Shown piece after piece: positions 1 to 2,590 of a DNA stretch of 64,000 nucleotides. Below the pieces are notes generated by a model that saw nothing but the letters and a program-made list of their open reading frames with translations, was not told where the DNA came from and made no database searches. A program made the translations under genes and the position numbers. The stretch is taken from contig NC_011901.1 in NCBI RefSeq assembly GCF_000021985.1, positions 248,001 to 312,000 of the forward strand. The letters run 5' to 3'. The DNA is from Thioalkalivibrio sulfidiphilus HL-EbGr7 (GTDB lineage: Bacteria > Pseudomonadota > Gammaproteobacteria > Ectothiorhodospirales > Ectothiorhodospiraceae). The first letter of the stretch is position 1; every line of letters starts with the position of its first letter.

Positions 1-1
1 C

Positions 2-1483
2 AAGACCCTGGGCATCATCGCGTTGACGTTGATCTGCCTGGCCGTCTCCACCGTTCACGCCACCCCCACGGACCGCATCATCATCAAGGTGAGCGAGACC
101 ATGCGTCCGGCCGTGCTGGCCGACGGCGCGCTGGCACCCCGCGCCCGGGAGCGGGTCTCGTCTCTGTCCGCCGCCGTGGGCCACGAGGTGGTCTACCTGC
201 GCGCCATGTCCGGCGGTGCCGACGTGGTGCGGTTGCCTCGTGCCATGCCCCTGGAACAGGTGCAGGCCATGGCCGAGGCCATGGCGCGGCTGCCGGGGGT
301 AGAGTATGCGGAGCCGGATGCACGAGTGTTTCCAATGGAAGTACTCAATGATCCCCTGTTCGGGCAACAGTGGCACCTGCAGCCGGTGCGCACGACCCCC
401 CCGCTCAACTATGGAATTGATGCTCCAGCCGCATGGTCCATCACTACTGGCGAGGCGGTGGTCGTGGCAATAGTGGACACCGGTATCTTATTTGCTCATG
501 AAGATCTTGAAGGAAAGGTGCTTGAAGCTGGTTACGATTTCATCAGTGCAGACCCAGATGGAGAGTATTTTACGGCTAATGATGGTGATGGTCGCGATCC
601 TGATCCCAGTGATCCAGGTGATTGGGTGACAGAGGAGGAGGCTGAAGAGCGGGAATGCCGTGTAAGTCACAGCTCATGGCATGGCACTCACATGGCAGGG
701 ATTGTTGCTGCTTCGACTAGTAATGGCAAAGGGATAGCTGGTGTCAGTTGGGGAGCAATGATTCTCCCAATCAGGGCGCTTGGGAAATGTGACGGCTACA
801 GTTCTGATGTTATCGATGCTATGCGTTGGGCTGCTGGATTGCCTGTAGCGGGTGTCCCAAACAATCATGATGCAGCCAAAATAATTAACATGAGTCTGGG
901 CGCTAACCAGTCTTGCACGGGTGCCTGGCTTGATGCGGTGAATGCTGTTCATGAGAAAGGTTCCTTGATTGTTGCTGCCGCTGGAAACGGCGGTGTTTCA
1001 ATGTCGAGTAGCAGGAACCATGTTGTACCAGGGGTTTGTCCTGGAGTCTTGACCGTTGCAGCCACTAACAAAGCTGGGGATCGCGCGTCGTTCAGCAACT
1101 ATGGTCCACAGATTGATTTGGGAGCGCCAGGCATCTGGGTCCTATCAACCTCGGATCAGGGAACAACCAGCCCACTCGATGACAGCCACTATGAGAACAA
1201 GTCAGGAACTAGTGTCTCAGCGCCGCAGGTTGCAGGTGTGGCGGCACTCCTGCTCAGCTACGACGATTCGCTGGATCGTCAAGATTTAATCTACTTGTTG
1301 ACATCCAATGTCACTCCATACCCTGAAGATAGCCTGTGCGCGGCAGGCGGCGGTTGCGGTAGTGGAGTGCTCAACGCGGGTTTGGCACTGATGGCGGTGA
1401 CAGAGTTCGATGGTCGTCCCCCGCCGCCCCGACCAGCGTCATCTGGTGGGGGGGGGGAGGGGCAATATCGATCTGGGCTATAA
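2..1483 (+). CDS. Secreted subtilisin-like (S8) serine protease, 5' end outside the window
   Basis: Exported endopeptidase. The frame is open to the window edge and the first 20 codons read as the end of a signal peptide (hydrophobic run ending STVHA), so the true start is upstream; TTG at 23 is only the first start codon visible. An inhibitor-I9-like propeptide follows to about base 330. The S8 triad is visible: Asp of IVDTG (codon 476), His of WHGTH (codon 680) and Ser of GTSVSAP (codon 1211). The reading frame ends just after a Gly-rich stretch, ASSGGGGEGQYRSGL, created by a G10 tract at 1448-1457. Adding one G would replace the last residues with a hydrophobic segment followed by Asn-Asn-Arg-Arg, a GlyGly-CTERM-like tail, ending at 1566 inside the convergent rhombosortase gene. 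From about 330 to 1400 the codons are visibly less G+C-rich than the propeptide region, suggesting a recombined catalytic domain. Confidence 0.93.
   Translation, partial: KTLGIIALTLICLAVSTVHATPTDRIIIKVSETMRPAVLADGALAPRARERVSSLSAAVGHEVVYLRAMSGGADVVRLPRAMPLEQVQAMAEAMARLPGVEYAEPDARVFPMEVLNDPLFGQQWHLQPVRTTPPLNYGIDAPAAWSITTGEAVVVAIVDTGILFAHEDLEGKVLEAGYDFISADPDGEYFTANDGDGRDPDPSDPGDWVTEEEAEERECRVSHSSWHGTHMAGIVAASTSNGKGIAGVSWGAMILPIRALGKCDGYSSDVIDAMRWAAGLPVAGVPNNHDAAKIINMSLGANQSCTGAWLDAVNAVHEKGSLIVAAAGNGGVSMSSSRNHVVPGVCPGVLTVAATNKAGDRASFSNYGPQIDLGAPGIWVLSTSDQGTTSPLDDSHYENKSGTSVSAPQVAGVAALLLSYDDSLDRQDLIYLLTSNVTPYPEDSLCAAGGGCGSGVLNAGLALMAVTEFDGRPPPPRPASSGGGGEGQYRSGL
1448..1457 (+). repeat. G10 homopolymer at the 3' end of the S8 protease gene
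   Basis: Ten consecutive G bases follow GGT at the point where a GlyGly-CTERM tail would begin. With 10 G the protein stops 8 codons after the tract. With 11 G (or 8 G) the frame continues to a stop at 1564-1566 and encodes Gly-rich, then hydrophobic (AISIWAITLIFFYAYLCIW), then basic residues. This could be a phase-variable slippage tract or an assembly error. Confidence 0.85.
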
Positions 1484-1496
1484 CGCTGATCTTTTT

Positions 1497-2078
1497 TTAT
1501 GCATATCTATGCATCTGGAATAACAGAAGACAAGCACTACACACAGCCCCCGCGAGCGCCCCGTAAAGATGCGCATCCACGATCACCGCGCCGCCGATCA
1601 GTTGTGCGGTGCCGGGGTCCTGGCCGGCGAACTGCTCCCAGGCGAGCTTGGCGATCAGACCCAGCAGTAGCAGACCCAGGCTGGGCTGGCGCTTCAGGCC
1701 GGCCAGGGCGCCGGCCGCGATCAGGCCGTGCAGGATGCCGGACAGGCCCACGTACCAGCCCACCGTGGGTGAGAAGGCCAGCAGTCCCAGATTTACACCC
1801 ACCGCACAGACCAACACCGTCATCCACCATTGCCAGAGCGGCAGTTGTCGGGCGAGGATGAGCCAGATGATGGCCAGACCGGCCAGGTTCATGGCCAGGT
1901 GGGCCCAGCCCAGGTGCATGAGCTGGCCGGTGACCAGGCGCCAGGGCTGTGCCAGCCATAGCCCCCGTTCCAGACGCAAGGCCTCCAGGCCGCCGAAGGC
2001 CTGGGCCAGCAGGGCGGCCAGGGCTAGCGTGAGAGGCAGCGCCCAGCGTGCCAGGCGCGGTTTTGCCGGGTTGTTCAT
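1497..2078 (-). CDS. rrtA: Rhombosortase, rhomboid-family intramembrane serine protease
   Basis: 193-residue polytopic membrane protein. Rhomboid features are visible: several hydrophobic segments, a catalytic-Ser motif GLSGILHG near residue 120, and a downstream His in VDAHLYGALAGA near residue 168. The compact size and this layout match rhombosortase, the protease that recognises GlyGly-CTERM tails at the inner membrane. It converges on the S8 protease gene and is divergent from gspG with 62 bp between starts, so enzyme, probable substrate and the T2SS pseudopilin cluster are contiguous. The start is ATG at 2076-2078. If the S8 gene gained one G, the two 3' ends would overlap by 70 bp. It could be another small rhomboid, but the neighbourhood strongly favours rhombosortase. 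Confidence 0.88.
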   Translation of the reverse strand: MNNPAKPRLARWALPLTLALAALLAQAFGGLEALRLERGLWLAQPWRLVTGQLMHLGWAHLAMNLAGLAIIWLILARQLPLWQWWMTVLVCAVGVNLGLLAFSPTVGWYVGLSGILHGLIAAGALAGLKRQPSLGLLLLGLIAKLAWEQFAGQDPGTAQLIGGAVIVDAHLYGALAGAVCSACLLLFQMHRYA

Positions 2079-2140
2079 GCAGCCGCCATGACAAAGTGTC
2101 AGACTATCGAAACAGGAACGAACGAGGTAGTGATCGAATC

Positions 2141-2590
2141 ATGAACTACAGCATCGCACACAAATCCCGCCGCATGGGCGGCTTCACCCTCATTGAGGTC
2201 ATGGTGGTGGTGGTCATTCTCGGCATTCTGGCCGCCATCGTGGTGCCGCGCATCATGGACCGGCCCGACGAGGCCCGCATCGCCAAGGCGCGCAACGACA
2301 TCCGCACGCTGGAACAGGCCCTGAACCTCTACCGACTGGACAACTTCCGCTATCCCACCACCGAGCAGGGCCTGCGCGCCCTGGTGGAACGACCCACCAC
2401 CTCCCCCGAGCCGCGCAACTGGCGTGCCGGAGGCTACCTGGACCGCCTGCCCATGGATCCCTGGGGCAACCCCTACGAATATGCCCATCCCGGTCGCCAT
2501 GGCGACATCGACATCTACAGCCTCGGCGCCGACGGCCGTCCCGGTGGTGACGGTGCGGATGCCGACATCGGTAACTGGAACATCAACTGA
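2141..2590 (+). CDS. gspG: T2SS major pseudopilin GspG
   Basis: Main subunit of the periplasmic pseudopilus that pushes folded substrates through the outer-membrane secretin. 149 residues from ATG 2141; an in-frame upstream extension to 2048 lacks pilin character and overlaps rrtA, so it was not used. Short basic leader, then a prepilin cleavage site G|FTLIE and the hydrophobic N-terminal helix. The C-terminal part has the GspG signature: DPWGNPY, then an Asp-rich calcium-binding segment near GADGRPGGDG. It is first of the gspGHIJK run, with gspH starting 3 bp downstream. Confidence 0.97.
   Translation: MNYSIAHKSRRMGGFTLIEVMVVVVILGILAAIVVPRIMDRPDEARIAKARNDIRTLEQALNLYRLDNFRYPTTEQGLRALVERPTTSPEPRNWRAGGYLDRLPMDPWGNPYEYAHPGRHGDIDIYSLGADGRPGGDGADADIGNWNIN

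Follow-up and report, generated by a model that had tools for sequence, protein, structure and literature searches.

In V. cholerae, the surface retention of VesB requires the tail of the protein, rhombosortase, and the T2SS, and VesB without an intact tail is released (PMC6219818). Where a genome has a sole GlyGly-CTERM target, it is usually encoded beside the rhombosortase (Haft and Varghese 2011, PMC3237569). The same study listed the genome of HL-EbGr7 among three that have a rhombosortase but no recognised GlyGly-CTERM protein (Table 2). For such orphans, the proposed causes were problems with sequencing or with gene finding, or else decay or divergence.

The window analysed here is a stretch of 64,000 nucleotides from Thioalkalivibrio sulfidiphilus HL-EbGr7, whose genome is a single contig of 3,464,554 bp. 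At its start, a protease gene and the rhombosortase gene face each other among the gsp genes. The displaced tail at the end of the protease gene is very probably the missing target of the HL-EbGr7 rhombosortase. The probability that this tail is real, ancestral, and displaced by a G tract is put at about 0.9.

The G tract and the two reading frames

The features of the locus are as follows (positions are those of the window unless a locus is named).
L001:2412-3626, upstream of the window: gspF
1..1483 (+): deposited form of the S8 (subtilase) protease, including a signal peptide and a propeptide (PF00082, 5.7e-57, ORF residues 150-437)
334..1546 (+): divergent, low-GC protease body, without the ~215-residue spacer of the same-genus orthologues
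1448..1457 (+): G10 tract in Gly codons (direct reading; orthologues without the tract)
1458..1566 (+): probable displaced GlyGly-CTERM tail, readable with 8 or 11 G, homologous to the in-frame tails of G044, G045, and G043
1462..1518 (+): hydrophobic helix of the tail, AISIWAITLIFFYAYLCIW, with a mean hydropathy like that of the orthologues
1519-1530 (+): NNRR basic cluster of the tail, directly after the helix
1497..1566: convergent overlap of tail and rhombosortase gene, 70 bp in the shifted frame (also 70 bp in 3/3 same-genus orthologues; G131 and G254 have 73 bp)
1497..2078 (-): rhombosortase gene, running towards the protease gene (TIGR03902, 153.6 bits, cutoff 84)
2141..2590 (+): gspG, the nearest T2SS gene beyond the rhombosortase gene and divergent from it

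The protease gene begins with an ATG located 14 bp ahead of the window (L001:3987). The sequence-only reading had claimed a run of ten G in this gene, and exactly ten can be counted at 1448-1457 (+), inside Gly codons. In the deposited frame, the protein ends with PRPASSGGGGEGQYRSGL and a stop at 1483, which leaves 13 bp to the rhombosortase gene; its C-terminus, SSGGGGEGQYRSGL, is the Gly-rich stub that had been described for the ten-G protein. With 8 or 11 G, the reading continues as GGGGAISIWAITLIFFYAYLCIWNNRRQALHTAPASAP to a stop at 1564-1566, in the order Gly-rich stretch, helix AISIWAITLIFFYAYLCIW, NNRR, QALHTAPASAP, and stop, and the layout that had been proposed for it (Gly-rich, hydrophobic helix, NNRR, open to 1566) was found as such. 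The third frame past the tract has a stop too. The tripartite C-terminus, with its Gly motif, hydrophobic helix, and basic residues, is present in the shifted frame and absent from the deposited one. The convergent rhombosortase gene that had been placed directly downstream was verified by TIGR03902, for which it is the only match above the cutoff in the genome, and the arrangement can be refined by the 70 bp overlap with the protease in the shifted frame.

Two further observations concern the neighbouring genes. Between gspF and the protease, there is a small gene (L001:3627-3982) whose product is a likely lipoprotein. It resembles the propeptide of the protease itself (38% identity over 69 residues, E 3e-13), and it may perhaps be a stand-alone inhibitor or folding helper. 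On the other side, at most 0.5 kb separates the rhombosortase gene from gspG, with the two always divergent, in 16 of the 54 rhombosortase loci of a non-random sample. These loci (L001, with window positions 1497-2590, L060-L062, L143, L144, L155, L156, L159, L161, L167, L168, L173, L176, L177, and L181) span several gammaproteobacterial families. Haft and Varghese (2011) saw no sign that rhombosortase is a marker of a T2SS subclass (PMC3237569). The physical position of rhombosortase within T2SS gene clusters bears on the coupling of secretion and surface retention.

The tail in orthologues and in profile searches

Three further genomes of the genus (G044, G045, and G043) have an orthologous protease-rhombosortase pair between gspF and gspG, and the tail is in frame in all three; the protease ends with SSGGGGGVLSFWLFGILFAYTGLCVRRSRRYPPAATPASAP in G044 and SSGGGGALAPWFLAVLLAYAGLLRFRRIRMPPQASPARAP in G045. 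The Gly codons of the orthologues are GGT and GGC, and they form no tract: at the homologous site of the three loci (L060, L061, and L062), the longest G run is 3. The shifted frame of the window, aligned without gaps to the first 24 residues of the G044 tail, gives 8/24 identical and 13/24 positive positions. According to residue shuffles, such a match has a p of ~1e-5, while the other two frames score negative; for the G045 tail, the p is 1.3e-4. With 8 G, the number of Gly residues in the window tail would equal that of G044. The three genomes, and the window only via the shifted frame, have the tail stop at a point 70 bp into the rhombosortase gene, where it faces the conserved HLYGALAG region of rhombosortase. 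In another family, G131 and G254 show the order gspF-protease-rhombosortase-gspG, a GlyGly tail, and a 73-bp overlap. The tail was in frame in 5/5 syntenic relatives examined, and the window record is therefore the exception. As judged from these sequence comparisons, the shifted frame represents the ancestral state. Another genome of the genus, G042 (99% complete), has no detectable gspG, rhombosortase, or close protease orthologue.

The tail does not appear to be worn. Its NNRR basic cluster is weaker than the basic end of the orthologues, a point against its reading as a tail. The identity between the window and G044 tails is 8/24, compared with 9/24 between G044 and G045, and the corresponding values for the S8 body are 57% and 62%. 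Divergence is thus no greater than between intact tails, and there is no excess decay in the window tail. The displacement should then be an artefact, very recent, or reversible.

Profile searches require caution. Neither TIGR03501 nor TIGR03867 matches the shifted tail of the window, and TIGR03501 has no matches across the genome. Both models also fail on the undisputed in-frame tail of G044; the G045 tail passes TIGR03867 MprA_tail (26 bits vs 19.7). The silence of the public HMMs therefore carries little weight. The sequence-only reading had suggested the lack of an HMM match to the alternative frame as part of a refutation; none was found, and the test has no power when the tail of the closest orthologue is missed likewise. 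A custom profile was built from the tails of 15 relatives, with the window sequence excluded. Its top match genome-wide is window 1450-1563, a weak one (19.1 bits, E 0.008), and none of its weaker matches in the genome combines a Gly motif, a helix, and a basic end. Because G001, which has no rhombosortase at the threshold used, gives a match with E 0.003, the custom-profile score alone is not decisive. A TIGR03867 scan of class-wide genomes, intended to gather tails, gave matches in 3/369 and was dropped as too insensitive. The identification of the out-of-frame stretch as a GlyGly-CTERM tail, with the neighbouring rhombosortase as its natural partner, is strongly supported by the comparative data, namely the orthologues, the overlap, and the residue match.

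The DNA flanking the protease body matches G044 with 91-92% identity, on one side as far as window 333 and on the other from 1547 onwards. The body between the flanks (334-1546) has a protein identity of 57% with G044 and a GC content of about 50–57%, as if it had been exchanged or were fast-evolving. The G044 body is also low in GC, yet it differs from that of the window. In the S8 tree, the window protease sits at the end of a long branch within the clade of its genus; a sister relation to G044 was not recovered, although support for the fork between the two is not firm. As a donor of the low-GC body, no candidate was found: beyond the genus, identity does not exceed ~49% even in the best matches, and the tree keeps the body with the genus. 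Certain more distant S8 proteases likewise bear the tail shortly past the S8 domain, so a short spacer does not have to indicate a defect.

Possible causes of the displacement

Long runs of G or C are rare in this genome (G000). When overlapping matches are merged and the expectation is derived from base composition, 27 runs of at least 8 bases are observed against ~586 expected, which makes them about twentyfold rarer, and only four runs reach at least 10. The G10 tract is unusual for this reason, yet a run in Gly codons can arise without selection. A further 10-base G/C run (G000:C1:655558-655567, in L008/L120) is located three codons short of the end of an ORF of >370 codons; it may mark another displaced end, or just the place where the gene ends.

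In our judgement, a homopolymer miscount is the most likely cause of the displacement, followed by a real recent frameshift and then by a reversible switch. For a miscount of the tract in the 454/Sanger assembly, the chances are about even. The genome was assembled in 2008 from Sanger (8.19x) and 454 (23.3x) data and finished (PMC3072093), and the commonest 454 errors are indels (PMC3116506). The sequence-only reading had offered a slippage switch or an assembly error; the error is rated somewhat likelier because of this hybrid origin, and, as to the switch, the same-genus orthologues lack the tract. Against a miscount stand the 8.19x Sanger coverage and the finishing, and against a blanket artefact, the 9-base and 11-base G/C runs that sit in open frames elsewhere. 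The long G/C runs were also considered as a control of assembly quality and put aside as weakly informative, with two in open frames and the rest ambiguous. The finished genome with its Sanger coverage would, conversely, suit a real one-way loss, in which a recent slippage mutation led to an untagged protease and a rhombosortase without a target. The tract is sufficiently long for slipping, and the gene has a body that is divergent and rearranged. This loss is possible but doubtful, given a tail without excess decay and an intact rhombosortase gene.

A reversible slippage switch would mean that the tract length changes at a high rate and that a clone mixes tailed protease at the surface with untailed, released protease. 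The G tract would then be a true hypermutable switch of location (surface via rhombosortase versus release), not of enzyme production. The tract sits exactly in the Gly codons just ahead of the sorting helix in a genome that otherwise strongly avoids long G/C runs, the tail has not decayed, and in V. cholerae, VesB that has lost its tail is released instead of staying at the surface (PMC6219818). Nevertheless, the switch is unlikely: the tract occurs in none of the same-genus orthologues, and it lies at the 3' end, whereas homopolymer contingency tracts are typically found near the 5' end (PMC2831843). A literature search for phase variation together with rhombosortase returned no case of a phase-varied sorting signal. 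If the tract does toggle, phase-variable localisation could be put to the test in a harmless chemolithotroph. Homopolymer runs can be slippery. Slippage of RNA polymerase or the ribosome on the run might allow the G10 gene to produce a certain amount of tailed protein, but the slippage described in PMC6260861 concerns A/T runs and not G runs, and such recoding appears improbable. Least credible of all is a coincidence in which the shifted frame is no sorting tail. The public HMMs gave no match, and a stop-free stretch of 34 codons is by itself unremarkable (P ~0.19 in base shuffles); coincidence is contradicted by the orthologues, the residue similarity, the position of the stop, and the overlap length.

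Proposed function and comparison with known systems

With the tail taken as ancestral and displaced, the gene would encode an MprA-like S8 protease that properly ends in a GlyGly-CTERM tail and is the only evident target of the rhombosortase next to it; the tail would be out of frame in the record through a G tract in its Gly codons that is written as 10. By analogy with VesB of V. cholerae, the tailed protease would be exported and then held at the inner membrane by its tail. Rhombosortase would cut after the Gly motif, probably with lipid modification, and the T2SS encoded around the protease would pass the cut protein to the cell surface, while a protease without the tail would be secreted free. 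The living strain, or a very recent ancestor, most likely makes the tailed form.

The displaced tail agrees with the rule of Haft and Varghese (2011) that the sole target is encoded beside the enzyme. One of the three published orphan rhombosortases is very probably settled in this way, and the near-perfect pairing of enzyme and target is restored. The case indicates that one homopolymer call can conceal a sorting signal and that public tail HMMs can miss even an intact member such as that of G044.

The locus shares with the GlyGly-CTERM/rhombosortase system a secreted serine protease, a Gly-rich motif, a single helix, and a basic end, as well as a TIGR03902 rhombosortase, a T2SS, and a sole target adjoining the enzyme. 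It differs in that the tail is out of frame as deposited and in that the pair is placed inside the gsp cluster, in convergent orientation with a 70 bp overlap. Like the MprA protease (NCBIfam TIGR03867), it has an S8 protease with such a tail, and the orthologue in G045 passes the model; the tails of the window and G044 do not. Homopolymer phase variation, such as that of the poly(G) in H. pylori pldA (cited in PMC2831843), is similar in that a long coding G run sets the frame. In the window, however, the run is at the 3' end, the orthologues are without a tract, and the tract length is that of one genome of the species. Unlike most known contingency loci, a switch at this site would alter only the destination of the enzyme.
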